Origin: Alphaproteobacteria bacterium
Lineage (GTDB): Bacteria > Pseudomonadota > Alphaproteobacteria > Micavibrionales > UBA2020
Direction of reading: 5' to 3'
NCBI GenBank assembly: GCA_018971405.1
Contig: JAGXAX010000005.1
Location: 1 to 15,688 of the forward strand
DNA length: 15,688 bases
A program made the position numbers and the translations under genes. The notes under the pieces were generated by a model. That model was not told the origin of the DNA. It did no database searches and worked only from the letters and a program-made list of their open reading frames with translations. Below, in pieces: positions 1 to 14,021 of this stretch (within the stretch, counting starts at the first letter, position 1; every line of letters starts with the position of its first letter).

Positions 1-219
1 GAAAACGCCCTTGTAGAAAGCATGCCTGAACCACAAGAGGAGAAAAACCAAGATCGGAAAGATCGTGAAGAGGGAGGAAAAGGCCATGATGACAGCCGAG
101 ATGGCGACATAGAACATGGCGGCGCCGTCAGGAACGCTGGGAAAGGCGCTGTTGCCGCCGCGCTGCCGCGGCAGGAGAAATGTTCCGGGGAGAGGCTTTT
201 GCGTTGTTTCCTTTACCAT
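1..219 (-). CDS. N-terminal fragment of a membrane protein, possibly the polysaccharide polymerase
   Basis: This is the first 73 codons of a gene read on the minus strand and open at the window edge. The ATG at 217-219 overlaps the stop of the PP-loop gene by 7 bp (ATGGTAA), which points to translational coupling in the same operon. About 32 polar residues rich in Arg, Pro and Gly come first (MVKETTQKPL...). A strongly hydrophobic stretch of about 27 residues follows (roughly residues 35-61, ending ...LVFLLLWF) and then basic HAFYKG, so a cytosolic N-tail followed by a membrane helix is likely. No family motif is visible in this short piece. Because the operon so far lacks a Wzy/ExoQ-type polymerase or a flippase, one of those is a reasonable guess from context only. 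The long polar leader is uncommon for such proteins, and a later start at the Met around residue 35 is possible. Confidence 0.6.
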   Translation of the reverse strand, partial: MVKETTQKPLPGTFLLPRQRGGNSAFPSVPDGAAMFYVAISAVIMAFSSLFTIFPILVFLLLWFRHAFYKGVF

Positions 220-1550
220 GCGAGGCATCCGTTGATGAAGCGGGCGAGCGCTCTGTGGCGCAGCAGCGCAGGAATGATCCGCATGGAGAACTGCTGCGCC
301 GCGGCGGCCGGCAGCAGGGCGGCGATGCACCGCACGGCGAGCGGCACGCGATAGCCCTCTTCAGCGATCAGGCGCCGGATCTCCTTCGCGTAGATCGATT
401 TCCCGCCAATGGCTTCCACGAGATAAAGATTGTCGAAGGTCGCGAAGGAGCGGAGGTCGAAGACCTTGCCGTATTCCTCCAGCCTGCCCAGTATTTTCAG
501 CGTTGTGGCCGTACGGATGCATTTCCAGCAGACGCCGCAATTCGCGATGCCGTCCGGCGCGTTATGCGGTGACACGCAAACGTCGAGATAGTGGCGGCTT
601 TCCTCTACCTCGGCCACGCGCCGCGTCTTCTCGACGCGGCTGTGCTGTCCACCGCTCCCCATGCATTCGATGCGCTCCGTGCCGAGCAGCGGGAGGATGA
701 CGGGTTCGAGATGTGACATGTTGCTGTCAGGCCCCAGCTTCGTTTCGGAGAGCGGGTAGCCCGAGGCATAGAGGAATTTCCCGATTCTCTTCTGCATCAG
801 CAGGGCGACGGCGACGTTGCGCAGCGTATGAGTCAGCTCGAATTTTTTGCCCAGGAATTCGTCGAGGCTGGAATCGACGGCAATCACCGGTTTCCCGAGC
901 TTCTTCGCGCATTCCCGCAAGCGCGTGTAACGCCGCAGAAACAGCGCGCGGTCGGCGTTTGGCGTCATCTGCCCGTGGGCGCCGACATTGTTGAAGATGA
1001 AGTGCGTGAGGCTGAAAGCATCCGGCACGCGGCCCTGCGCGTGGTCGTAATAGTTGCAGAAGGAATCTATGCCGCCGGAGAATCCCGCAGCGACGCCAGC
1101 GCCGCCGGATGCAGCGGGCGTGAAACCATGAGGGATGACGCGCGTCAGCGGCGGTCTTTCGAAATATCCGGCGAGGATGGGGATGAGCGAACGGGAGAGA
1201 TTGTAGAACAGTCTTGCGGACATCGGCCATTCCAGCCGCATGTTCCTGCCCTGCAGGATGGCGGGAACAAGGCTGGCGACGACGAAGGCATCGAGCGTGT
1301 CGGCGGCGAGATAATCCTTGTAATCCTCCTCGACCTCGAACCACAGGGTTTTGACGTCGGCGCCGACGCGGATCTCTGCTGCCAGACGCGCTCTGCCGTT
1401 GCCCGCCGAAAGGACGGGCGGGCTGATGACGATTTCTTCCCGGTCGGCTCCGGCGTTAGCGTTTGCGGGTACGCTTTGCGAAATGGCGGTGCTGAACCCT
1501 TCAAAAAACCTGTTCGCGTTCCGCGCCCTGACGTTTACGGCTGTTGGCAT
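213..1550 (-). CDS. PP-loop ATP pyrophosphatase with QueC-like zinc site
   Basis: The product is 445 residues. Residues 158-163 read SGGIDS, the PP-loop that binds the ATP pyrophosphate in adenylating enzymes (QueC, asparagine synthetase, tRNA thiolases). Near the C-terminus Cys325, Cys338, Cys341 and Cys344 form C-X12-C-X2-C-X2-C, which resembles the zinc knuckle of 7-cyano-7-deazaguanine synthase QueC (C-X8-C-X2-C-X2-C). Residues 1-145 form an extra N-terminal domain I do not recognise, so the protein is about twice QueC length. There is no signal peptide, so it is probably cytosolic. I chose the ATG at 1550 because AGGAAGG lies just upstream; a longer reading to 1619 has no such support and would overlap exoO. 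It lies 17 bp after exoO and overlaps the next gene by 7 bp. An adenylation-dependent step (amidation, thiolation or nitrile formation) is inferred from the fold; the substrate is unknown. It is not part of the classical succinoglycan pathway. Confidence 0.82.
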   Translation of the reverse strand: MPTAVNVRARNANRFFEGFSTAISQSVPANANAGADREEIVISPPVLSAGNGRARLAAEIRVGADVKTLWFEVEEDYKDYLAADTLDAFVVASLVPAILQGRNMRLEWPMSARLFYNLSRSLIPILAGYFERPPLTRVIPHGFTPAASGGAGVAAGFSGGIDSFCNYYDHAQGRVPDAFSLTHFIFNNVGAHGQMTPNADRALFLRRYTRLRECAKKLGKPVIAVDSSLDEFLGKKFELTHTLRNVAVALLMQKRIGKFLYASGYPLSETKLGPDSNMSHLEPVILPLLGTERIECMGSGGQHSRVEKTRRVAEVEESRHYLDVCVSPHNAPDGIANCGVCWKCIRTATTLKILGRLEEYGKVFDLRSFATFDNLYLVEAIGGKSIYAKEIRRLIAEEGYRVPLAVRCIAALLPAAAAQQFSMRIIPALLRHRALARFINGCLAW

Positions 1551-1567: not shown

Positions 1568-2500
1568 TTATGATGATAGGGGGATAAATTTTTGTGCGCG
1601 CGCCCATGCCGGCCGCCACAAATGGCGGGCGGCCAGCGGCGCGCTTGCCGCCATCCGCAGCGCAGAGGGAAGGTCGCGGTTCTTGATCGCTTCCACAAGG
1701 CAGGCGTAGGCATGGGCCTCCTTCAGGCCGGTGGAGCGCTTTTCCTGCGCCTTTTGCGCGGCGGCAGAAAGCCTGTGCGCCGAAATAAACAGTCCGTCGG
1801 CGGAGATGATGCGCCGGATGTCCGCACTGGTCAGGCGGTGCGAGACGGAACCTGCGCGGGCCGTGTACGAATATCCCTCCGCCGGATCGACGGCACAGCG
1901 CGCGCCTTGGGCAAGGGCGCGTGCCAGCAGAAAATAATCCTCGCCGATGCGCAGGCCTTCTGGATAGCGAAGCCCTTTGTAGCGGAGAAATGCGGCGGAG
2001 AAGACAGGCTTCATGTATCCCAGTGCATAGCCGCCCGCAAGAGAACTGTTTCCGGCGATGAAATCCGCCAGCCCGAGCGTGCCGAGCCGTGTGAGGCGGG
2101 CGGAGGAAAACATCGGGAAGATCGCACCGTCGCTTTCGCGGCAGACCGAAAGATTGTCGACGGCGATGTCCGCCTCTTGCACGTCGGACAGTTGCGAGAG
2201 ACGCGCCAACCGTCCGGGCAGGAAGGCGTCGTCGCCGTCGAGAACGACGATCCGGCGGCCGGAAGCGGCGCTGATGCCTGCGTTGCGCGCCGCACCGGGA
2301 CCGCGGTTTTCATCAAGGCGGATGGACAGAAGGCGCGGGTCGCCTATCCGCGAGACGACGTTCCGCGTGCCGTCCGTGGAAGCGTCGTCGACCACGATGA
2401 CTTCCATGGTCTCTGCTTGCGCAAGCGCGCTGTTCACGGCTCTTTCGATGTAATGTTCCACGTTATGGGCGGCGATAATCACGGAAATATCGGCGGACAT
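1568..2500 (-). CDS. exoO: ExoO-type family 2 glycosyltransferase
   Basis: The product is 310 residues with a GT-A fold. It starts with the family 2 opening ISVIIAAHN and has VVDDASTDGT near residue 40, the metal/nucleotide-sugar motif D88-G-D90-D91, and a GEDY motif with E187-D188 as likely acceptor-side catalytic residues. The stretch around 115-165 (AVDNLSV, GYMKPVF) resembles S. meliloti ExoO as I recall it. In succinoglycan synthesis ExoO adds the fifth sugar, a beta-1,6-linked glucose that starts the side chain, onto the undecaprenyl-PP-linked tetrasaccharide at the inner membrane. No transmembrane helix is visible, so it is probably membrane-associated. The start at 2500 follows AAAGGAAG. 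It overlaps the end of exoM by 22 bp and precedes the PP-loop gene by 17 bp. The order after exoM matches S. meliloti. Donor and linkage are inferred from the family. Confidence 0.9.
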   Translation of the reverse strand: MSADISVIIAAHNVEHYIERAVNSALAQAETMEVIVVDDASTDGTRNVVSRIGDPRLLSIRLDENRGPGAARNAGISAASGRRIVVLDGDDAFLPGRLARLSQLSDVQEADIAVDNLSVCRESDGAIFPMFSSARLTRLGTLGLADFIAGNSSLAGGYALGYMKPVFSAAFLRYKGLRYPEGLRIGEDYFLLARALAQGARCAVDPAEGYSYTARAGSVSHRLTSADIRRIISADGLFISAHRLSAAAQKAQEKRSTGLKEAHAYACLVEAIKNRDLPSALRMAASAPLAARHLWRPAWARAQKFIPLSS

Positions 2501-3405
2501 GTTTCTTCCTTTCTCTTGCGTGCCATCAGACGGGATGCGGCGCCGGCGTGCAGCGCGCCGCGCAGGGTCCAGAACCGCACCGCCCGTCCACGCGAAAAAT
2601 TGAGCAGCGACAGGGACAGGCAAAACGCGGCCTTGGCGGCGGCGAGCGCGGCGTTTTTTACGCGCATTGATGCGTCCGGCGCGGCCTCCAGCAGCAGAAG
2701 GCCGTGGGTCTGGCCGAAGCGGAAACGCCGCCGCAGCAGCCAGAGAAAACGCTCGCGTTCTTCCGGCACGTTTTCGGTGACAAGTGCGCCTCCTGCAAAA
2801 ACGATGCGGCCGCCTGCTCCGACAAATTCGTGGAAATAGGCCGTATCTTCCCCGCCGCACCGGCCGAGGTCCTCGCGAAAGCGCAGCTCCGGCGCGCTTC
2901 CGCGTCTCAAGAGAACGTTGCCTGCGCCGCCGCTGACGATTTTTCCGTTTTTCCAGACCGGCAGCGAGGAATGGAAATCGCCTTCCTTCAGCCAGGCCGG
3001 AGATTCCGGCCGGTAGACTGCGCGCACGGGGCCGAGCGCGGCGTCCGCCCCCGTTTTTTCAAGTGCTTCGGTCAGAGCGGCGAGCCAGTGCGGGCTTGCC
3101 CTTTCGTCGTCGTCGATGAAGGCGATGAGCGGTGCCGTCGCCAGTGCGAGGCAGGCGTTGCGCGCGATCGAGATGTTGCGTGCTGGTGCATGAACATAAG
3201 TGCATTGCAGGGCATGACGCTGCGCGGCGTCCGCGACCGTCGCCCGCGCCGCCGGGTGGTCGTCGTTGTCGGCGACGATGACGCGGATTTTTTGCGCGGG
3301 GTCGAGGTTTTGCCGCGCGACGGACGCCAGCGTCGCCGCGAGATGCGGACGGCGGAAGGTGCAAATGCAGACATCGATATCCGCTGCGGGAAGATTTTCC
3401 GTCAT
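2479..3405 (-). CDS. exoM: ExoM-type family 2 glycosyltransferase
   Basis: The product is 308 residues, the usual ExoM length (about 309). Characteristic ExoM features are the opening IDVCICTFRRP (10-20), VIVADND (43-47), NISIARN (77-83), the triple aspartate motif FIDDDE (96-101), GDFHSSLPVW (142-151), GGEDT with E186-D187 and RRFRFGQTHG further on. In succinoglycan synthesis ExoM adds the fourth sugar, a beta-1,4 glucose, to the lipid-linked trisaccharide on the cytosolic face. The C-terminal part is hydrophobic and basic and may bind the membrane. The ATG at 3405 overlaps the stop of exoA as ATGA, and GAGGGGGG stands at Shine-Dalgarno distance. A longer reading upstream would run inside exoA and is not needed. 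Its neighbours (exoA before, exoO after) agree with the call. The glycosidic linkage in this organism is inferred. Confidence 0.92.
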   Translation of the reverse strand: MTENLPAADIDVCICTFRRPHLAATLASVARQNLDPAQKIRVIVADNDDHPAARATVADAAQRHALQCTYVHAPARNISIARNACLALATAPLIAFIDDDERASPHWLAALTEALEKTGADAALGPVRAVYRPESPAWLKEGDFHSSLPVWKNGKIVSGGAGNVLLRRGSAPELRFREDLGRCGGEDTAYFHEFVGAGGRIVFAGGALVTENVPEERERFLWLLRRRFRFGQTHGLLLLEAAPDASMRVKNAALAAAKAAFCLSLSLLNFSRGRAVRFWTLRGALHAGAASRLMARKRKEETCPPIFP

Positions 3406-4406
3406 GGCGCCCCCCTCAGCGTGTCGAAAAGGCCGCGCATGAATCCCGATGACCAGCCAAGATGCATCAGCATGGCGGCGGGGCCGGACAGAACAATCTC
3501 CGCCCGCCGCGCGCGGATGCCCAGAGCAAGGCCGTAGGCAAGGCATACGGACATCCACAAAACCGCGGGCAGGGCTGCAGTCCATGTAAAAAAAGACAGC
3601 GGCGCGAGCGCGAGCGCGGGCGCGACGGCCAGCGGGGCCATCTGGCGCAGGCGCGGAATGGTCCGGTGCTTGACGACGGTACGCGCGCGGCCATGGCCGA
3701 AGTGGAAATACTGGCGGAAGAGAAGCGACGGCTTTACGCGCGGATAATAGGTGAGCGCCGTCTTTCCCGTCAGCCATATTTTATGCCCCGCACGACACAA
3801 GCGGATGTCCAGCTCCGCATCCTCGTTGTGGGAAAAATTTTCGTCATAGCCGCCTACGGCGCGGAAAATATCGAGGCGGATGAGCGCGTGATGCCCGTGA
3901 TCGACCCATTTTCCCGTGCCGACTGCACGGCGGTGAGCGGCACCGCCGTTGCCGAGGATCGAATTCTGCGCGGCGGCGGCGGCGCGCTGGAAAACGGTTT
4001 CCCCGGCGGTATGCATGGAAACGACGACGGCGCCTGCGCCGGTGTCTTTCTGCTCCGCGACGAGGGTTTGGCAGTAATCCGGGGGATAGTCCGCATGGCA
4101 GTCGAGCCGGAGCAGCAGGCGCGCGCTTCTGCCGTAAATTTCAACCGCCAGATTGACGGCAGCGCTTTGCAGGCGTTTCGGGTTGTGCAGATATATAACG
4201 TTCGGAAATTCCACTGCCAGTTTTCGCGCGATGGGCGGCGTCCTGTCCGTGCTGCCGCCGTCAGCGATGACGAGAAGGAACGATGGCGAAGAAAAATTGC
4301 CGATGATGTTCCGGACGACGCGCTCGATGTGACGCTCCTCGTTCAGGCACGGAATGACGGCGATGATATCGGGCGCGTCATTGTGATGCGCAGCGGATTT
4401 ATGCAT
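3402..4406 (-). CDS. exoA: ExoA-type family 2 glycosyltransferase with C-terminal membrane helices
   Basis: The product is 334 residues, close to ExoA (about 330). The N-terminal GT-A domain carries IIAVIPCLNEE (14-24), IADGGSTDRT near 48-57, a LLRLDCHADYP segment as the DxD-like site and HNEDAELDIRLCRAG with the conserved ED. After about residue 255 come two or three hydrophobic stretches (APLAVAPALALAPLSFF, LPAVLWMSVCLAYGLALG), consistent with anchoring in the inner membrane. In succinoglycan synthesis ExoA adds the first glucose (beta-1,3) to the lipid-linked galactose. The start ATG at 4406 overlaps the exoL stop by 8 bp (ATGCATAA). A GGGGAA stretch lies upstream but is a modest ribosome site, so coupling to exoL translation is likely. 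The stop overlaps the exoM start by 4 bp. Assignment rests on motifs, length and synteny; the sugar specificity is inferred. Confidence 0.87.
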   Translation of the reverse strand: MHKSAAHHNDAPDIIAVIPCLNEERHIERVVRNIIGNFSSPSFLLVIADGGSTDRTPPIARKLAVEFPNVIYLHNPKRLQSAAVNLAVEIYGRSARLLLRLDCHADYPPDYCQTLVAEQKDTGAGAVVVSMHTAGETVFQRAAAAAQNSILGNGGAAHRRAVGTGKWVDHGHHALIRLDIFRAVGGYDENFSHNEDAELDIRLCRAGHKIWLTGKTALTYYPRVKPSLLFRQYFHFGHGRARTVVKHRTIPRLRQMAPLAVAPALALAPLSFFTWTAALPAVLWMSVCLAYGLALGIRARRAEIVLSGPAAMLMHLGWSSGFMRGLFDTLRGAP

Positions 4407-5553
4407 GGACAGGTTCCCCGGGCGAGTGCGAGAGGGATGCCAGATAGCCGACAAGCGACCGGCAGTCGTCCTCGTCATGACGCCATTGCGCACGTGGCGT
4501 TTGCGTGGCACGTTCTTCCAGCGCGCGGTAACGGTCTGCCGTCAGGGTATCGAAGAAGCGCGGCAGTGATAAACGCAAGGGATCCTCCAGCGTCACGCCG
4601 GCGCCGATCTGGTCGAGAAAGACGCCGGTGAAGACGGATTTCAGCGCGACCGGAACAGCATCGAACAGCCCGCCTTCGTAAAGTCTGTTGGGCAGCAACA
4701 GGGATGAATTGCCGTCTTCCTCATAAAAATCCACCGCCCAGCTGAAATGTATGCTGCGGTAGAGCGCAGGCAGGTCTTCTGGATACCGATACGCACCCGT
4801 GAAATGCATGCCGCGCGTGCGGGAAACCACATCTTGAAAATCCGGAATTTGATCAAGCGCAGGGCGTCCGCGGATGACGATTTCGACGGCGCCGTTGCTT
4901 CGCCGAGCGAGGTCGGAAAGGATCATGAGGCTTTTGCGGCAGCGGATGACGCCGAACCAGCCGATCTTCCACGGCGGTCCGGCCGGCCTTTTTGGCCATG
5001 CGTTTTGCGCGGGAATTTTTCCCTGCGGGTCGTAAACCTTGTTTTCAATCAGCCGGACCGGCGTCGCATGACGAGAAAAATGCGCTGCGATGAATCCCGG
5101 TGAACTGGTGATGAGGGCTGTAGCCTTTTTTACAAGCAGCTCTTCGATGCGGCGCAGCAGGCGTCCGGTTGGACCTTTGTCGAACAGCAGACGGTGAATA
5201 TCGAGGCTTTCATAAACAAGGGTTGTCGCGGGAAAAATGGCGGCATGTCGCGCGCCGATTGCCAGCATTTCGAGGTTGCGGGCGACGATCACGTCCGCTT
5301 CCGCAAAAGCGGCGTTGCGGAGCGGTAACAATATATAACGCAGCGTCGCCGCAATCCTCCGCACGAACCTGCCGTCGTATGTCCGCCCGAGATCGACCGG
5401 TACATGGCCCGCGACGTCGCGCACGGGCTGCGGTGTACGGCGAAATCCGGCTACGGAAAGAATTGCGCCGCCGTCGCGCAGCATCGCGACCCGCTTGTGG
5501 ACGGCGGCATCCGCGAGATCGTGCGCGAGGTAAATGATTTTCGGCTTCCTCAT
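4399..5553 (-). CDS. exoL: ExoL-type glycosyltransferase
   Basis: The product is 384 residues and soluble, with a GT-B-like layout. The N-terminal half opens with IIYLAHDLADAAVHKRVAML and GFRR and includes ADVIVARNLEMLAIG. A second Rossmann-like part begins near GPPWKIGWFGVIRCRKSL and ends with SWAVDFYEEDGNSSLLLPNRLYEGG, where a glutamate of the NRLYEGG stretch is in the position of the donor-binding Glu of GT4-like enzymes. In succinoglycan synthesis ExoL adds the third sugar, a beta-1,4 glucose. The opening and the VHDL/AHDL pattern agree with ExoL as I recall it. The ATG at 5553 overlaps the exoK stop (ATGA), and the stop overlaps exoA by 8 bp. The ribosome site is weak (GGGAAC), so coupling to exoK translation is likely. 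No membrane segment is obvious. Confidence 0.86.
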   Translation of the reverse strand: MRKPKIIYLAHDLADAAVHKRVAMLRDGGAILSVAGFRRTPQPVRDVAGHVPVDLGRTYDGRFVRRIAATLRYILLPLRNAAFAEADVIVARNLEMLAIGARHAAIFPATTLVYESLDIHRLLFDKGPTGRLLRRIEELLVKKATALITSSPGFIAAHFSRHATPVRLIENKVYDPQGKIPAQNAWPKRPAGPPWKIGWFGVIRCRKSLMILSDLARRSNGAVEIVIRGRPALDQIPDFQDVVSRTRGMHFTGAYRYPEDLPALYRSIHFSWAVDFYEEDGNSSLLLPNRLYEGGLFDAVPVALKSVFTGVFLDQIGAGVTLEDPLRLSLPRFFDTLTADRYRALEERATQTPRAQWRHDEDDCRSLVGYLASLSHSPGEPVHA

Positions 5554-6290
5554 GGCTTGTTCCCGTGCGGCGCGTAACTGACCCAGGCAATATCCGCGGT
5601 TGCGGGTTTTTTATAAATGAAAGGACCCATCCACGCATTCTCTGCGGCTGCGCCGGACCATAGGCTCAGGTAAATACGCATGGCATTGTCCGGCATCGGC
5701 GCGCCGGTGGTGGTTTCATGCACCAGACGGCCATCGACGTACCAGTGGATGGCCGAAGGACTCCACGCAAAAGCATAATCGTGAAATGCCGCCGCAGCGT
5801 CGTAGCCGAGCGGAACGACGGTATGGTCGAGCTTTTTTCCGTGACGCCAGTAGGTGACTTCGACGGCGTGCGTGTCCCTGCCGAGGAATTCGAAATCGAT
5901 TTCGTCGTGCGACGGCACGCCAACGGGAGGGCCGACGTAAACGAAGAAGGCGGTATTGAGCCCGCTGCCTTCGGCGGCGCGGAGGCGGGCTTCGTAGCGG
6001 CCGTAGCGCGTGAGCGCGGCGCTGTGAATTTCGGCGCAGCCGTAGTGGCGCAGTTTTCCGCCCTTATCCGAAAGGCGTAACCGTAAATTGCCATGCGTGG
6101 CGGACAGGGCGTCTGCACGCCATTCGCAGGACTGCCAGTCGCCATTGGCCCAGCCGTCGGAAACGCGCCAATGCGCGCGGTCCAGACGTGGATAGGCGGA
6201 GAAGAATGGCAGTTGCCCCGCTGAGGACGCTCGCGCTTCCGCTGTCAACAGCAGTAGGACGGCACCGAGACAATAGACGAACTTTCTCAT
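5550..6290 (-). CDS. exoK: ExoK-type GH16 endo-beta-glycanase
   Basis: The product is 246 residues including a signal peptide (MRKFVYCLGAVLLLLTAEARA, probable cut after ARA at residue 21). The mature part is one GH16 jelly roll: substrate-cleft pattern around LNTAFFVYVGPP, then HDEIDFEFLG with E130, D132 and E134 as nucleophile, helper and acid/base of the short ExDxE form used by lichenase/ExoK-type enzymes, then WSPSAIHWYVDG and MRIYLSLWSG. ExoK in rhizobia cuts nascent succinoglycan in the periplasm or outside the cell. The start at 6290 is preferred over 6317 because it gives a clean signal peptide; its ribosome site (TGGGTG) is weak. It is the first gene of the minus-strand operon and overlaps exoL by 4 bp. 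All catalytic residues are present. Confidence 0.9.
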   Translation of the reverse strand: MRKFVYCLGAVLLLLTAEARASSAGQLPFFSAYPRLDRAHWRVSDGWANGDWQSCEWRADALSATHGNLRLRLSDKGGKLRHYGCAEIHSAALTRYGRYEARLRAAEGSGLNTAFFVYVGPPVGVPSHDEIDFEFLGRDTHAVEVTYWRHGKKLDHTVVPLGYDAAAAFHDYAFAWSPSAIHWYVDGRLVHETTTGAPMPDNAMRIYLSLWSGAAAENAWMGPFIYKKPATADIAWVSYAPHGNKP

Positions 6291-6454
6291 GAAACACCCA
6301 TTGCATGCCGCGCGCATTTTTGCGGAGGCTCGACCGGGTATAACGCCGTGCGTGCCGCGACGGTTCCGCGCGGATAAAAAAATATTTCATTTGATAATGC
6401 GCCGATAAACGCATAGCGTTTTCATCACTCAACCACAAAACAGCGAGGCACCGG
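6291..6454. promoter_or_regulatory. Divergent promoter region between exoK and the PCP gene
   Basis: 164 bp separate two divergent starts, so promoters for both operons must lie here or nearby. The centre (6373-6398) is AT-rich against a GC-rich background, including a run of seven A. An inverted repeat AAACGC-ATA-GCGTTT lies at 6407-6421, 33 bp before the PCP start, and could be an operator. TTGATA at 6391 and TATAAC at 6340 are the best hexamer-like elements, but I find no convincing -35/-10 pair on either strand. GAGG at 6444-6447 is the likely ribosome site of the plus-strand gene. Confidence 0.4.
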
Positions 6455-7690
6455 ATGTATTTCGAATTCAGCCTGCGCGGCCTTCTTACCGCGCTTTTCA
6501 GGAAGAGGGACGTCTTTCTTCTGGTATTTTCCTTCGTGTTTCTGGCCGGCGGACTTTATGTGCTGCACCGGCCGCCGACGTACGAATCGAAGGGCTCCTT
6601 CCTTATCAGGTTCGACCAGGGAGCCTTGCCGGCGGCAGACAGCGCGGGCGACGGGCGGGGGATGGAGTTTTCCGGTGACGGACGCGCGGAGATGCTCCAG
6701 TCGAACGTCGCGCTGATCGAGAGCGACGATCTGCTGCAGGATGTCGTCCGCTCCGTTGGCGCGTCGAGAATATATCCGGGCATCGATGACGGAAAGGGGG
6801 CGGAAACGGCAGTTCTGTCGGCAGTCGCCCGTCTGCGCGCGAAGGGACTCAAGGTCGAGAGCGACCCGCGAAGCGACGTCATCGCGTTCAGCGTCTTCAA
6901 CGGCGATCCCGCAGTCGCGCGCGATGTCGCCGCACGCATCATGCAGGTGTTCACTGCGCGCCAGTCCGTCATCTTCGGCGCGCCGCACACGGTCTTCCTG
7001 CAGCAGCAGGCCGATGCCATGCGCGGGAAGATGGAGAGATCGGAGCAGGACTTGCGCGACTTCAAGCGGATGAACGGCATTACGCTGCTGGATGAGGAGG
7101 TCACGCAGCTCCTGGCGGAGAAGAAGGACTTATCGGTGCGCGCCTTTCAGGCCATGAGCGACGGGCAGGCCGTGATCGCCAGGCTGGAGAAGAACAGGGC
7201 GGAGATGGAGGCAACCTATCGTCCGGACAGCCCGGTCATACAGCGCATCGACGAGAGCCTGGCCGCCGCCCGCGCCGAGGCGCAGGAAGAGAACTCCGGC
7301 AATGGCGCTTTTGCCGCGCGCATCGCCGTCGTCGACAAACGGCTCGCCTTGCTGGAGGCAAACCGCAGGCGCTACCATGATCTGGAGCAGCGCGTCGCTC
7401 TCGACACGGAAAACTACAAGTTCTACCAGCTGCGCAATGACGAGGCGCGCGTGAGCGAACGGCTGAACCGCGAGAACATCACACGCATATCCGTCATCGA
7501 CAGGCCGGCGGTTCCACCGGAGCCGGTGAATGGGCACAGGGCGCTTTTTCTCTTCGCCGTCCTGATGGCGGCCTCGCTGCTCGGGCTCGGCGCGGTTATC
7601 TTTCTGGAACTCATCGACGATACGGTCGTTTTCAACGAGCAGGTCATCGCCGCCACCGGACTGCCTGTTCTCGCAAGCTTTGGGAGGTAA
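6455..7690 (+). CDS. Wzz/ExoP-like polysaccharide co-polymerase (chain-length and export protein)
   Basis: The product is 411 residues with the PCP layout. A short cytosolic start is followed by a first membrane helix (about 19-37, FLLVFSFVFLAGGLYVL), then a long periplasmic region with the opening PPTYESKGSFLIR and a predicted coiled coil (about 185-320: QQQADAMRGKMERSEQDLRDFKR, LAEKKDLSVR and later helices). The proline-rich IDRPAVPPEP (348-357) leads into the second helix (about 362-385) and a short cytosolic tail. It corresponds to the N-terminal, non-kinase part of ExoP, which sets polymer length and connects polymerisation to export. The tail ends ASFGR where ExoP would continue into its kinase domain; here that part is a separate gene starting 6 bp later. 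The start at 6455 has GAGG upstream. Confidence 0.85.
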   Translation: MYFEFSLRGLLTALFRKRDVFLLVFSFVFLAGGLYVLHRPPTYESKGSFLIRFDQGALPAADSAGDGRGMEFSGDGRAEMLQSNVALIESDDLLQDVVRSVGASRIYPGIDDGKGAETAVLSAVARLRAKGLKVESDPRSDVIAFSVFNGDPAVARDVAARIMQVFTARQSVIFGAPHTVFLQQQADAMRGKMERSEQDLRDFKRMNGITLLDEEVTQLLAEKKDLSVRAFQAMSDGQAVIARLEKNRAEMEATYRPDSPVIQRIDESLAAARAEAQEENSGNGAFAARIAVVDKRLALLEANRRRYHDLEQRVALDTENYKFYQLRNDEARVSERLNRENITRISVIDRPAVPPEPVNGHRALFLFAVLMAASLLGLGAVIFLELIDDTVVFNEQVIAATGLPVLASFGR

Positions 7691-9313: not shown

Positions 9314-9432
9314 CCTTTCCCCTTTTTTGCAGCGTGTTGAACGTCAGTCTGTTTGAACGCTTTCGCGTGACGGAACGTTCCCGAGCGCGCGGGCGTTCAT
9401 GCGCGGGGCTGGGATGTCGTATGGAGGATGTT
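9314..9432. promoter_or_regulatory. Divergent upstream region of exoV and exoN
   Basis: 119 bp separate the exoV and exoN starts. The region has two TTGAACG copies (9337-9343 and 9353-9359, 16 bp apart) and a perfect 10-bp palindrome GGAACGTTCC at 9372-9381. These may be regulator sites or -35 elements. No clear -10 box follows either TTGAAC at 16-18 bp. GGAGG at 9423-9427 is the ribosome site of exoN, 5 nt from its ATG. Confidence 0.35.
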
Positions 9433-10341
9433 ATGGGTCATGTTCCTGTTAAAGTGAAAAAGGCCGTCTTTCCTGTCGCGGGACTCGGAACGCGTTTCCT
9501 GCCCGCCACGAAGGTATTGCCCAAGGAAATGTTGGTGCTAGGCGACAAGCCGCTCATCCAGCATGCCTATGAAGAGGCGCGCGCGGCGGGGATCGAGGAG
9601 TTCGTTTTCGTCAGCAGCAGGGAAAAATCCCTGATCGAAAAACATTTCAGGCCGCACCGGCTGCTGCACCAGACGCTGGCGGCGCGCCATAAAACCGCCG
9701 AACTCGGACGTTTGCAGGACAGCACCGCGGACGATGGCAGGCTTTCGGTTATTTATCAGGATCAGCCGCTAGGGCTGGGGCATGCGGTGTGGTGCGCGCG
9801 GAAACTGATTGGCGACGAGCCTTTCGCCGTCATCCTGCCCGACGACGTTGTCATCGGCGGTTCCTGCCTTGCGCAAATGATCGAAGCTTACGGCGAGGTC
9901 GGCGGCAATCTTGTCGCCATCGAGAATGTTCCGCGCGCGGAAACCTGCAAATATGGCGTGCTTGACGTCGCGCGCGACGGCGCGCGGCTTGTTGAAGTCA
10001 GAGGACTGGTGGAAAAGCCGGACCCCGCGGAAGCACCATCGACGCTGGCGATCATCGGCCGCTATATCCTGCAGCCGCAGATTTTCGGACGGCTTGCTGT
10101 TGCCGGAAAAGGCGCGGGAGGCGAGATCCAGCTCACGGATTCACTCGCAGCGCTGATTGGCGCGCAGCCCTTCCATGGCTTTCGCTTCGAAGGCAGGCGC
10201 TATGATTGCGGCAGCAGCGCCGGCCTTCTCAAGGCCCACATCGCCTATGCCATCAATGACAACGGTGGCGCGGCCGGCCCGCTCGTGGAATTCCTGCGCG
10301 ACGCGCTCGGTTCCGCAAACGCCGCCGCAGCCGGAACCTAA
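9433..10341 (+). CDS. exoN: UTP-glucose-1-phosphate uridylyltransferase (ExoN/GalU)
   Basis: The product is 302 residues, the normal GalU/ExoN length. The nucleotide-binding loop VAGLGTRFLPATKVLPKEML spans residues 15-34. FVSSREKSLIEKHF, QDQPLGLGHAVWCA (109-122), LPDD (135-138), VEKPDP (193-198) and GEIQLTDSL (230-238) follow as in GalU. It makes UDP-glucose from UTP and glucose-1-phosphate in the cytosol, the donor for ExoA, L, M and O. The ATG at 9433 is preferred over 9334 and 9421 because GGAGG sits 5 nt upstream and because it gives the family start just before KKAVFPVAG. In S. meliloti exoN lies after exoO; here it has moved next to exoV. Its stop overlaps the stop of the convergent exoprotein gene by 4 bp (CTAA). 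Confidence 0.95.
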   Translation: MGHVPVKVKKAVFPVAGLGTRFLPATKVLPKEMLVLGDKPLIQHAYEEARAAGIEEFVFVSSREKSLIEKHFRPHRLLHQTLAARHKTAELGRLQDSTADDGRLSVIYQDQPLGLGHAVWCARKLIGDEPFAVILPDDVVIGGSCLAQMIEAYGEVGGNLVAIENVPRAETCKYGVLDVARDGARLVEVRGLVEKPDPAEAPSTLAIIGRYILQPQIFGRLAVAGKGAGGEIQLTDSLAALIGAQPFHGFRFEGRRYDCGSSAGLLKAHIAYAINDNGGAAGPLVEFLRDALGSANAAAAGT

Positions 10342-13300
10342 ACGACCAGGTTGCCGTGGCTGATGAGCGTCTGCTCATTCAGGTTCGGCTCGCTGAAGAT
10401 GGCGACGACCTGCGTCCATCCCGCGGCGCCGGCGTGCCCCGATAGGTCCACCTCCACGATGCTGTTATGGCCGCTCGTCACGACGTTGACGAAATTCGAC
10501 ACCGCCGCGCTTGCCGCCGGATTGTAGTGCCCGGAGAGGACGTCGGAAATATCGATCTTGTCGCCGTTCGCGGCCGAGAAGCCCCTGATGGTGTCAGCCC
10601 CGCTGCCGAGATTGGCGGCCTTGAAGACGAACGTGTCATGGCCGCCGGAAGCGCCGTAGAGCATGTTGCTGCCGTAGCCGAAAGTGATGGTTTCCCCTGT
10701 CGTGGCGGGAGGTTCTATCGTGACGTTCACCGTGCCGGTCGATGTATGGCCGGCGCTGTCTTGCCCCGTGTAGGTGAAGCTGTCCGTGCCGGTGAAGCCT
10801 GCTTTCGGCGCATAGGTGAAGGTGCCGTCCGAGGCTTCGGTGACGGTCGCGCCATGGGCGGTCGTCAGCGTTTCCGGCTTGACACTCAGGGAGAGTCCGC
10901 CCGGATCCGAATCCGGCCCGTTGCCGTTGTTCGCCAACACGTTGCCGAACATCGGCAAGTTTTCCATGCCTGTCCAGATATCCGTTTGGGCAATAGGGTT
11001 GACAGGCGGCGGATTGACGGCAACCGTCGCTGTTCCCGTTGCCGTAAGGCCGGCGCTGTCGTTTAGCGTATAGGTGAAGCTGTCTGTGCCGATGAAATTC
11101 GCCGCTGGCGTGTAGGTGAAGGTGCCGTCGGCGTTCTCGACCACAGTGCCTCCGTGCGCGCTCGCGAAGATGCCGGCGGTGACGTGCAGGGCGAGGCCGT
11201 TCGGGTCGGTGTCGTTCATCAGGACATCGCCAGTGATAGCATGGTTCTCCGTGCCGGTGAAGCTGTCCGGCGCGGCCACGGGCGGCGCATCGACCGTCAG
11301 TGTCACCAGACCGGACGATTTAAGGCCTGCGCTGTCGCTTAAGGTATAGTAGACGCTGTCCGTTCCCGCGAAGCCCGCCGCGGGTGTATAGGTGAAGCTG
11401 CCGTCCGCGCTTATCAGAAGGATGCCGCCGTGCGCGGTCGCGAAGGTGCCGGGCGCGACGCTTAAGGCCAGTCCGTTCTGGTCGGTGTCGTTGGTCAGCA
11501 CGTTGCCGGTGATGACATGGTTTTCCGCGCCGGTGAAACTATCTGGCGCAGCCACGGGCGGGCTGAGGGACGCAGCAGCGATGCCGAGCGTCGCCGTGCC
11601 GGTTGCCGTAAGGCCGGCGCTGTCGTTCAGCGTATAGGTGAAGCTGTCCGTGCCGGTGAAGTTCGCCGCTGGCGTGTAAGTGAACGTGCCGTTGGCGTTC
11701 ATGACGACACTTCCGCCGTGCGCGGTCGCGAACGTTCCGGCAGTGACGCTTAAGGCGAGGCCGTTCGGGTCGGTGTCATTGGTCAGCACATTGCCGGTGA
11801 CGGCATGGTTCTCCGTGCCGGTGAAGCTGTCCGGATTGGCAGCCGGCGGGGCAGAGGGAGGCGGCGGCGCGGTGACGGTACCCGTCGTTGCCTGCACGCC
11901 GACGGTGTTGTAGTCGGCAATGGTGTTCGGCGAGGCGTAGACCTGTACAGAGCTGATTTCCATCTGGGCGGGGAACGCGGTCGCGCTGTTCGGCGCACCC
12001 GGCCAGCTGCCCGCGCCGCCCACCGCAAGGTTCATCAGAAAGTACATCGCCTGGTGCATGTCGGCGGGCGTGGCTTCCTGACCGACCTGCTTCCCGTCGA
12101 CGTAGAAGGTGATGGTGTTCGGCTCCCAGTCGACGGCGTAGGTATGGAAGCCCGTCGTCATCGGAACCTGATAGGTGATGCCTATGGTGCCGTTGGTCTT
12201 GGAGTGCAGCGTCATGTAGTCGGTGGTCGGCTGGTTGCCGATCTCCTCCAGAAGGTCGATCTCCGGCGGCCACGACATGTTGGCGGGCAGCAGCCACAGC
12301 GCGGGCCACAGGCCTTGCCCCGCCGGCAGCTTCGCCGTGACTTCATAGAGGCCGTAGGTCTGCGCGAAGCTCGTGTAGGTGGTGAGCAGGCCGGACGTGT
12401 AGGGCAGCGTCGCGCCGTTGTTTGCCGCGGCCTCCGTCGCCAGCATCTGCGCGGTGGCCGGCGCTGCGGTGATCGTCAGCACGCCGTTGCTGACTGAAAG
12501 GGGGTTCACGCCGACGGTCGGGTCGGAATAGAACTCCGCCTCGTTGTTGCTCGGCAGCGTGCGCCCGCTGAAGGCCGCGGAGCCGGGTGTCGCGTAAGGG
12601 TAGGTCGTGTCCCACGTGCCGCCCTTGTTCAAAGATGATTCGAGGCTGAGTGTGGCGAAGCTCGGGTCGAACACCAGCGAATATCCCGCCGAGGGCGTTA
12701 TGCCGACGTTCTCCGTTCCCGTCGCCGTCGCGCCGCCGCTGTCCTGCACCGTGTAGGTGAAGCTGTCCGCGCCGACGTATCCCGCGGCAGGCGTGTAGGT
12801 GAAACTGCCGTTGGCGTTCTCGACGACGGTACCGCCGTGCGCGGTCGTCAGCGTTTCTGGCGCGAGGCTTAAAGTCAGGCCGTTGGGGTCCGAGTCGTTG
12901 GTCAGCACGTTGCCGGTGAGAGGCTGGTTTTCCGCGCCGGTGAAGGTTTCGGTTACGGCAACCGGCGGCAAGAGCGTCGTCGTTTGCGGCGCTTTCACGA
13001 CGACGTCAACCGCGCCCATCGACGTGAGGCCGCTGCCATCCGTCAGCGTGTAATTAAAGCTGTCCGTGCCGGTGAAATTCGCTGCGGGCGTGTAGGTGAA
13101 GCTGCCGCTGGAGTTCTCGACGACGGTGCCGCCGTGCGCGGTCATCAGCGTTTGCGGCGCAACGCTTAAGGCCAGGCCGCCGGGGCCGGTGTCGTTCGCC
13201 AGCACGTTGCCGGTGACGGCCTGGTTTTCCGCGCCGGTGAAGCTGTCGGACCCTGCTACGGGCGCCTGCACGCCACCGAGACCGTCACCTGCGATATGGC

Positions 13301-14021
13301 TCATGTCGAGACCGTAGAAGGTCGTCTGCCCCGCGCCCGTCGCCTGCGGGAGGCTTGTGCCGGACGTGGCGGATTCGCCGTCGAAGACGCCCGCCTTGAA
13401 ATAGAGCGGCAGATGGCCCCAGCTCGAATCGATCGAGGTGACGGAAGTGTAGGTGTCTCCGCCGACGATGATCTTGGCCGTCAGAGTGCTGCCTTGCGCC
13501 TCGATCACGTAGGAAAATGTCTGGTTGAGCCCGATGACGGGGGTTTTCCCCGCCGCGTCATGGAACTGGTACGTGTCCTGATGGCCGTTGTAGAGGGTAT
13601 TTTTGAAGTAGATTTTTCCGGCGTCATAGTAGATCTGGATCAACGCTTCGTTCGAGTTCTGCACCATCAGTTGGCCGACGATGACGCTGCCTTCAGCGCC
13701 GCTTGTGAGGGTGGGAACGCTGTTGACCGCGAGCGTCGCCGACATCGTGCCGCCCGTGGAAAGGGTCCAGCCTGCCGTGCCCTGTTCGTTCAGGCCGGAG
13801 CCGGTGCCGAAGGTGGCCGCCGTCGTCGCGCCGGAGACTGGCGCGGCGAACGTCATCGAACCGTCCGGATTGCCGTAGAAATAGGGTGACGCGTAGTCCG
13901 TCAGGGATGTCACAGTCGCGCCCGTGCCGCTTGTGCCGCCGGTGGCGTTTACGGGCAGGGTCAGGTCCCAGTCCGTGAGGTTGAAGTTGTTCGAGTTGTA
14001 GTCGATGGTGCTGTTCGGCAT
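10338..14021 (-). CDS. Giant type I-secreted glycan-active protein: PL7-like, Ig-like repeats, GH16, serralysin-type C-terminus
   Basis: The product is 1227 residues without an N-terminal signal peptide. Residues about 8-243 match the PL7 (alginate lyase 2) fold: FNLTDWDLTLPV, FAAPVSGATT, VIVGQL and YFKAGVF. Residues 254-345 and 353-441 are two Ig/cadherin-like repeats (PVA...DSFTGAEN...TGNVLTND...AHGG...FTYTPAA...GTDSFTYT). Residues about 447-697 are a GH16 domain with QGLWPALWLLP and PEIDLLEEIG; E587, D589 and E592 form the catalytic ExDxxE. A proline linker and four more repeats follow (725-815, 821-910, 913-1002, 1007-1103). The end carries one RTX-like turn (GASGGHDTFVF) and SGADTIRGFSAANGDKIDISD, typical of serralysin-type type I secretion tails. 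It probably leaves the cell unfolded through a PrsDE-like exporter and acts on the EPS, like ExsH or PlyA/PlyB of rhizobia. The start at 14021 follows GGGGGA. Transporter genes are not in the window. Confidence 0.88.
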   Translation of the reverse strand: MPNSTIDYNSNNFNLTDWDLTLPVNATGGTSGTGATVTSLTDYASPYFYGNPDGSMTFAAPVSGATTAATFGTGSGLNEQGTAGWTLSTGGTMSATLAVNSVPTLTSGAEGSVIVGQLMVQNSNEALIQIYYDAGKIYFKNTLYNGHQDTYQFHDAAGKTPVIGLNQTFSYVIEAQGSTLTAKIIVGGDTYTSVTSIDSSWGHLPLYFKAGVFDGESATSGTSLPQATGAGQTTFYGLDMSHIAGDGLGGVQAPVAGSDSFTGAENQAVTGNVLANDTGPGGLALSVAPQTLMTAHGGTVVENSSGSFTYTPAANFTGTDSFNYTLTDGSGLTSMGAVDVVVKAPQTTTLLPPVAVTETFTGAENQPLTGNVLTNDSDPNGLTLSLAPETLTTAHGGTVVENANGSFTYTPAAGYVGADSFTYTVQDSGGATATGTENVGITPSAGYSLVFDPSFATLSLESSLNKGGTWDTTYPYATPGSAAFSGRTLPSNNEAEFYSDPTVGVNPLSVSNGVLTITAAPATAQMLATEAAANNGATLPYTSGLLTTYTSFAQTYGLYEVTAKLPAGQGLWPALWLLPANMSWPPEIDLLEEIGNQPTTDYMTLHSKTNGTIGITYQVPMTTGFHTYAVDWEPNTITFYVDGKQVGQEATPADMHQAMYFLMNLAVGGAGSWPGAPNSATAFPAQMEISSVQVYASPNTIADYNTVGVQATTGTVTAPPPPSAPPAANPDSFTGTENHAVTGNVLTNDTDPNGLALSVTAGTFATAHGGSVVMNANGTFTYTPAANFTGTDSFTYTLNDSAGLTATGTATLGIAAASLSPPVAAPDSFTGAENHVITGNVLTNDTDQNGLALSVAPGTFATAHGGILLISADGSFTYTPAAGFAGTDSVYYTLSDSAGLKSSGLVTLTVDAPPVAAPDSFTGTENHAITGDVLMNDTDPNGLALHVTAGIFASAHGGTVVENADGTFTYTPAANFIGTDSFTYTLNDSAGLTATGTATVAVNPPPVNPIAQTDIWTGMENLPMFGNVLANNGNGPDSDPGGLSLSVKPETLTTAHGATVTEASDGTFTYAPKAGFTGTDSFTYTGQDSAGHTSTGTVNVTIEPPATTGETITFGYGSNMLYGASGGHDTFVFKAANLGSGADTIRGFSAANGDKIDISDVLSGHYNPAASAAVSNFVNVVTSGHNSIVEVDLSGHAGAAGWTQVVAIFSEPNLNEQTLISHGNLVV
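10713..11849 (-). repeat. Four tandem Ig/cadherin-like repeats (C-terminal block)
   Basis: Four units of about 90 codons encode residues 725-815, 821-910, 913-1002 and 1007-1103 of the exoprotein. The first three are close in protein and DNA and share the core DSFTG(A/T)ENH and AHGG; the core before the hydrophobic strand is LTND or, in the third, LMND. The last is divergent (DIWTGMENLPMFGNVLANN) and has an extra NGNGPDSD stretch. Such units form rigid beta-sandwich spacers in surface and secreted adhesins or enzymes. Confidence 0.85.
12699..13262 (-). repeat. Two tandem Ig/cadherin-like repeats (N-terminal block)
   Basis: Two units of about 90 codons encode residues 254-345 and 353-441, between the PL7-like and GH16 domains of the exoprotein. 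They share the same core as the downstream block (SFTGAENQ or TFTGAENQ, TGNVL, AHGGTVVEN, FTYTPAA, GTDSF or GADSF). The DNA of the two blocks is similar enough that recombination between units is plausible. Confidence 0.83.

Follow-up and report, generated by a model that had tools for sequence, protein, structure and literature searches.

What is an enzyme built like QueC, the preQ0 synthase of queuosine biosynthesis, doing among genes for an exopolysaccharide (EPS)? The question is raised by the minus-strand gene for protein P0001 in a stretch of 15,688 nucleotides from an Alphaproteobacteria bacterium (contig JAGXAX010000005.1), hereafter the window. The observation of P0001 is real and conserved, and the main new result is the context of its family, the pairing with PF04230 polysaccharide pyruvyl transferases. 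The family represents a further form of the QueC scaffold, one that is repeatedly partnered by pyruvyl transferases and for which a chemistry is proposed below. The proposal builds on the fold, a conserved active-site architecture, the operon, co-inheritance, fusions, paired genes and a search of the host family that found no QueD; from these we infer adenylation, an amide product and pyruvate as the acceptor.

The gene, its fold and its active site

The frame (minus strand, 1550–213) is real, translating to 445 amino acids without an internal stop, and an upstream GTG at 1619 offers an alternative start that gives 468. By Pfam and NCBIfam its surroundings are EPS machinery of the Wzx/Wzy type. 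A preliminary description, made from the letters alone, had assigned the gene to an operon, and this holds: 17 bp (1551–1567) lie between its start and the end, at 1568, of a GT2 glycosyltransferase frame, and by 7 bp (213–219) it overlaps a downstream gene (1–219) whose homologue, L002:9332-10666, is Wzy_C by Pfam.

The same description had called the product a QueC-like enzyme, which the fold bears out. QatC is the best structural match across the N-terminal domain, the core and the C-terminal region, with residues 36–405 pairing with QatC 2–457 at 14% identity in a whole-chain alignment. The N-terminal domain of 145 residues described earlier does not stand as a single unit: residues 1–35 are predicted to be disordered, and what survives is a compact domain, modelled at roughly 36–147. 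Searched alone, this domain gave weak RNase H-like matches with no QatC listed, a result that excludes nothing.

The features by which the QueC superfamily is recognised, a PP-loop Rossmann-like core, SGGxDS and a C-terminal CxxCxxC four-Cys site, are all present in P0001. Its SGGIDS (158–163), which from family knowledge we take to be the ATP pyrophosphate binding site, and its cluster C-x12-C-x2-C-x2-C (325–344, reading C-x12-CGVCWKC) had been picked out before, and both are kept across alignment A1 (51 rows). S158, G160, S163 and all four cysteines are each found in 51 of 51 rows, as is R244-N245, while D162 occurs in 50 and position 159 is G in 44 and A in 7. Over 179 family sequences the four-Cys pattern, with a first spacer of 5–25 residues, is missed once (P0071), and in 37 of the other 178 that spacer is at its shortest, 8, as in QueC. 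A strict form of the PP-loop pattern is absent from 36 of the 179, counting fragments and distant members.

Kinship with QueC rests on structure and motifs because searches at the sequence level gave nothing. P0001 found no match in Pfam, NCBIfam or PADLOC at E up to 10, in PHROGs at E up to 0.01, or among PDB sequences; a profile search of the PDB reached a best E of 0.75; and hhalign of A1 against E. coli QueC aligned 12 columns only, at the PP-loop. The Pfam family that the most members match, weakly, is DUF6395 (PF19932; 24 of 51, best E 0.0048), whose function is unknown; P0001 itself does not match it at E 10, and a genome search with PF19932 gave no matches in a run where control genomes likewise gave none.

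The family comprises at least 196 homologues at E 0.001 (protein search, best 8000 candidates scored) and is sparse: at E 1e-10 it occurs in 10 of the 398 genomes examined from the host phylum, in 5 of 369 genomes of the class of G385 at 1e-20 and in 9 of 392 genomes of Planctomycetota, the phylum of G432, at 1e-30. Two or three copies stand in tandem in G432, G792 and G880. Tandem genes of this kind in Planctomycetota-type genomes (L089 126-3838; L090 1499-5288; L005 259-2806) perhaps provide one enzyme per sugar residue.

Recurrent pairing with pyruvyl transferases

QueC-like, PF04230 and Wzy genes are found in the same four of 35 genomes, P0001's own included. A search for fusions among the best 7990 candidates gave at least 20 long family proteins, seven with PF04230, seven with GT2, one with TPR and five without a precomputed domain; in one of these five, P0121, the stretch at the C-terminal end aligns with PF04230 domains. 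P0020 is a further GT2 fusion, and its GT2 domain is of the same kind as the window gene upstream of P0001. On a FastTree tree of 169 sequences, a quick tree whose support was not examined, fusions to PF04230 turn up in at least four separate positions.

Relatives to which PF04230 is fused or adjacent come from gammaproteobacteria, Planctomycetota, Gloeothece, WOR-3, viral contigs and Azospirillum plasmids. An unfused PF04230 gene lies at most 170 bp from a member in Gloeothece PCC 7822 and PCC 7424, on Azospirillum plasmids (two of seven records), in loci L090 and L092 and on viral contig L122. On two more viral contigs, L123 and L124, the member and a PF04230-type gene are separated by a single FkbM-type methyltransferase gene (L123 by Pfam). 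The Azospirillum two-gene cassette has a multicopper oxidase gene on one side and genes for molybdate transport on the other; the gene table, which is incomplete, lists no polysaccharide cluster around it and no glycosyltransferase over a distance of 14 kb. In L104 the PF04230 gene is on another contig. The Pfam model scores above its cut-off in the window, L025, L026, L090, L092, L122 and L136, and below it in L121, L123 and L124.

Several observations weigh against pyruvyl transfer as the common thread. The PF04230 gene of the window belongs to the same locus as the P0001 gene and is not adjacent to it, lying 6.8 kb away. A PF04230-type gene was seen in 13 of 55 loci, some of them repeats, and ten of the 13 are no independent detections because the profile was trained on them; the sub-threshold Pfam matches reach 22.7 (L123), 20.8 (L124) and 20.1 bits (L121) for a cut-off of 25.3, and the locus-table profile misses the weak N-terminal match of L121. 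Distant members from the genome surveys account for 22 loci (L027-L038, L093-L102; the flanks of some are short), and in none of them was PF04230 found nearby; nor was it in the core loci L089 and L005/L091, each of which ends within 260 bp on one side. Fusions to GT2 and to PF04230 are equally frequent, and the shared substrate may therefore simply be a lipid-linked sugar. Nucleoside-diphosphate (NDP)-sugar dehydrogenases in all four carriers permit a uronate acceptor, and some viral members sit beside tail genes with no sugar genes in view.

Among the viral sequences, distant relatives adjoin a tail sheath gene (L118 7917-9047), lie 3.7 kb from a tail fiber J gene (L132 2057-3238) or weakly match the PHROG 'QueC-like queuosine biosynthesis' (L133 7530-8762); no sugar genes were recognised by eye beside these three, and relatives in phage structural regions perhaps have a separate role. 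Two other viral contigs encode a 603-residue family protein, the one with the weak N-terminal PF04230 match (L121 7302-9113), and an 848-residue protein in which a QueC-like domain is fused to an aspartyl/asparaginyl beta-hydroxylase domain (L125 7887-10433; 41.8 bits). P0129 (1340 residues) combines GT2 domain matches with a pair of QueC-like domains, in the first of which no PP-loop can be recognised. Distant members also adjoin Acetyltransf_6 (FemAB-like) genes (L028 8578-10953; L032 8572-10787) and an asparagine-synthase-like gene (L035 8074-12199), and a 558-residue family protein is encoded on a Paracoccus yeei plasmid (L024 13470-15146).

Candidate chemistry and competing explanations

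There is reason to think that P0001 activates a carboxylate on a lipid-linked glycan, because its gene lies between glycosyltransferase and polymerase genes and its relatives are fused to transferases that build or pyruvylate the repeat unit. The preliminary description had left the target of modification as a sugar, lipid carrier or protein; this is most likely narrowed to a glycan step linked to pyruvyl transfer. We tentatively propose, giving it somewhat less than an even chance, that P0001 tailors lipid-linked glycans by adenylating a carboxylate and turning it into an amide, the most likely site being a pyruvate carboxylate.

PP-loop enzymes of the QueC kind adenylate their substrate and release pyrophosphate. 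P0001 would act in the cytoplasm as an ATP-pyrophosphatase on the lipid-linked EPS repeat unit before polymerisation: its PP-loop would bind ATP, a carboxylate on the glycan would be adenylated, and an amine (the simplest being free ammonia, which QueC uses) would attack the adenylate to form an amide, with a nitrile possible after a second ATP. The likeliest carboxylate would be the ketal-pyruvate placed by the PF04230 transferase, which would make a two-step module that pyruvylates and then caps. That PF04230 and the QueC-like ligase form a widespread module for a so far undescribed glycan decoration, in which this carboxylate is capped as an amide, nitrile or amine conjugate and its negative charge hidden, is possible but doubtful, and the same doubt extends to its carriage in EPS loci, a plasmid cassette and viral contigs, which belongs to the same reading.

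QueC takes ammonia as its nitrogen source and converts an acid to an amide and then a nitrile (PMC13329287; PMC13279940); Cap9 joins an acid to a protein N-terminus, and the reaction of QatC is unresolved (PMC13329287; PMC13279940; PMC11996544); and nitrile formation by further PP-loop enzymes is known on peptides as well as on small molecules (PMC13060819). ExoV pyruvylates the lipid-linked unit in the cytoplasm ahead of polymerisation by ExoQ, and no word starting with 'amidat' or 'carboxamide' occurs in the main text of that review (PMC6801904).

The same kind of enzyme could instead work on another group of the glycan, amidating a uronic acid carboxylate or turning an N-acetyl into an acetamidino group as WbpG-type enzymes do. 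We consider this unlikely, but uronate amidation is a serious rival because of the dehydrogenases in all four carriers; GT2 fusions need no pyruvate, and a PP-loop/zinc family of sugar amidotransferases exists (PMC10607449). The repeated pairing with PF04230 argues the other way, and for a WbpG-type reaction so do the lack of an NCBIfam match to P0001 and the arrangement of cysteines, which in LpNASAT are residues 44, 47, 79 and 82 in a CXXC-Xn-CXXC pattern (PMC10607449) and in P0001 follow the PP-loop. It is improbable that a small acid is conjugated to the N-terminus of a partner in the EPS machinery in order to control it, in the manner of Cap9 and as proposed for QatC. Both of those enzymes act, or are proposed to act, on protein N-termini, QatC matches P0001 best over all three of its regions, and viral members adjoin tail genes; yet the fusions of the family go to sugar enzymes, no qat or CBASS gene was recognised near P0001, and QatB and CD-NTase substrates begin MGTS or MGGS (PMC13279940), whereas both frames flanking P0001 begin otherwise (judged by eye, true starts uncertain). 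Little likelihood attaches, too, to the insertion of sulfur, or to a donor-side role in which P0001 would activate a small acid for transfer by its PF04230 or GT2 partner. Ketal-pyruvyl transferases take phosphoenolpyruvate as their donor, so that an activated donor is unnecessary. The four-Cys site of P0001 resembles the zinc sites of QueC and QatC, unlike the three-Cys cluster of LarE (PMC13329287).

A diverged preQ0 synthase, or another 7-deazaguanine enzyme, is very unlikely. The fold, the PP-loop and the RN pair would suit one, and the sole significant match in a viral structure library is a phage 7-cyano-7-deazaguanine synthase. E. coli QueC requires R99 of VPxRN, Y131 of YPDC and Y35 of YxQxHxxE (PMC13329287), and by hand mapping on secondary structure P0001 has NNVGAH at the YxQxHxxE site and LSET at the YPDC loop. 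Roughly half of A1 does have a Y-x-[D/E]-[C/T] motif recalling YPDC, placed a few residues ahead of the expected position (column-wise Y267 in 29, D/E269 in 41 and C/T270 in 37 of 51). That P0001 makes preQ0 is thus unlikely because the substrate motifs of QueC are missing, PF06508 matches none of the 51 members at E 10, and QueD (PF01242) is found in none of ten host-family genomes, all four carriers included (QueE was not searched). Those genomes are 77–99% complete, the carriers 79–96%; QueD is present in two of six genomes from other families of the order, and 9 of 14 control genomes were positive. The earlier suggestion of a role outside queuosine synthesis gains from these counts, and from fusions that among the 20 long proteins involve only sugar enzymes, TPR or nothing recognisable, so far as to become probable.

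PF06508 matches occur in 16 of 16 genomes of relatives, 13 of them above cut-off, and all 22 matches are partial, 21 within model positions 1–75 and one at 137–206 of 210, in frames of 336–658 residues; these are presumed to be other PP-loop enzymes, and in G000 the match is on a different contig from P0001. Five annotated plasmid loci, a subset of the homologue loci, list no que gene. On one viral contig about 4.6 kb separate a family member from a QueD-type gene (L126 1326-1775; PTPS, 54.7 bits), and of the places seen this is the only one that makes a link to deazaguanines conceivable.

The QueC scaffold has already moved from tRNA modification to phage defence. A further branch, tied to surface sugars, would be another departure beyond both, and from it one would expect a modification of polysaccharides that could be destroyed, and so missed, in routine acid hydrolysis. 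Were pyruvate carboxylates capped, some EPS would have to be reassessed for charge, for ion binding and for recognition by phages or antibodies. A direct test is open in a soil bacterium that can be cultured, Azospirillum brasilense Sp7, whose two-gene cassette consists of the QueC-like gene AMK58_RS27450, a distant member at 103 bits, and the PF04230 gene AMK58_RS27455.

Neighbouring genes and known systems

The features of the window are collected in the table. Beyond them, positions 10338-14021 (minus strand) encode a 1227-residue protein in which tandem-95 repeats are joined by a GH16-type region and, at the C-terminus, a type I secretion domain; it is probably a glycanase that is secreted and binds to the polymer. 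The relative locus L002 also has a Wzy_C gene, together with a WbaP-type transferase.

Table. Features of P0001 and of the genes around it, in window coordinates
Feature	Position	Strand	Basis or remark
QueC-superfamily PP-loop protein P0001	213..1550	-	445 aa, without curated family
Compact N-terminal domain, residues 36-150	1101..1445	-	within QatC-matched range of whole-chain alignment
SGGIDS PP-loop, residues 158-163	1062..1079	-	sequence, alignment
R244-N245	816..821	-	positional counterpart of RN in QueC VPxRN; mapped by hand
Four-Cys site C325, C338, C341, C344	519..578	-	QueC/QatC-like zinc site, metal inferred
Start of Wzy_C (polymerase/ligase) gene	1..219	-	cut by window end; Pfam of homologue
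GT2 glycosyltransferase frame directly upstream of P0001	1568..2860	-	Pfam; true start likely within frame
GT2 glycosyltransferase frame	2479..3777	-	Pfam
GT2 glycosyltransferase frame	3402..4511	-	Pfam
Weakly GT4-like protein	4399..5553	-	PF13579 under cut-off
GH16 glycan hydrolase	5550..6317	-	Pfam
Wzz-like chain length determinant	6455..7690	+	under curated cut-offs
Polysaccharide pyruvyl transferase PF04230	8447..9313	-	31.6 bits, cut-off 25.3; proposed partner
GalU-like UTP-glucose-1-phosphate uridylyltransferase	9334..10341	+	Pfam, NCBIfam

In the literature searched, no mention of DUF6395 was found, and no publication that combines QueC, polysaccharide and PP-loop. A 2026 map of the QueC family starts from PF06508, and in the parts seen its only surface-polysaccharide cluster is WbpG-like (PMC13329287); because PF06508 matches no member, the P0001 family is probably left out of this map. 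With WbpG, WbuX and LpNASAT, P0001 shares a PP-loop, a tetracysteine zinc site and a surface-polysaccharide role (PMC10607449), but the cysteines of LpNASAT lie at residues 44–82 as CXXC-Xn-CXXC, whereas the C-x12-CxxCxxC of P0001 comes at 325–344, after the PP-loop. Cap9 of type IV CBASS is a minimal enzyme of about 185 residues beside a CD-NTase (PMC13329287), as against 445 residues in an EPS operon for P0001. Compared with QueC, P0001 keeps the RN of VPxRN, does not keep YxQxHxxE and YPDC, and is extended at both ends, by a domain of about 110 residues at the N-terminus and by a helical part at the C-terminus.

The NCBIfam model for QatC matches one of 51 members, at E 0.17, and leaves P0001 unmatched; qatA, qatB and qatD were not seen nearby, the genes of the window being identified by Pfam and NCBIfam as EPS genes (Pfam offers no model for qatB). 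Like QatC, P0001 is a QueC core with N- and C-terminal extensions; unlike QatC, which has C-x19-CGxCxxRR, it carries C-x12-CxxCxxC, keeps the RN pair, and has sugar enzymes as its partners in place of QatA, QatB and QatD.
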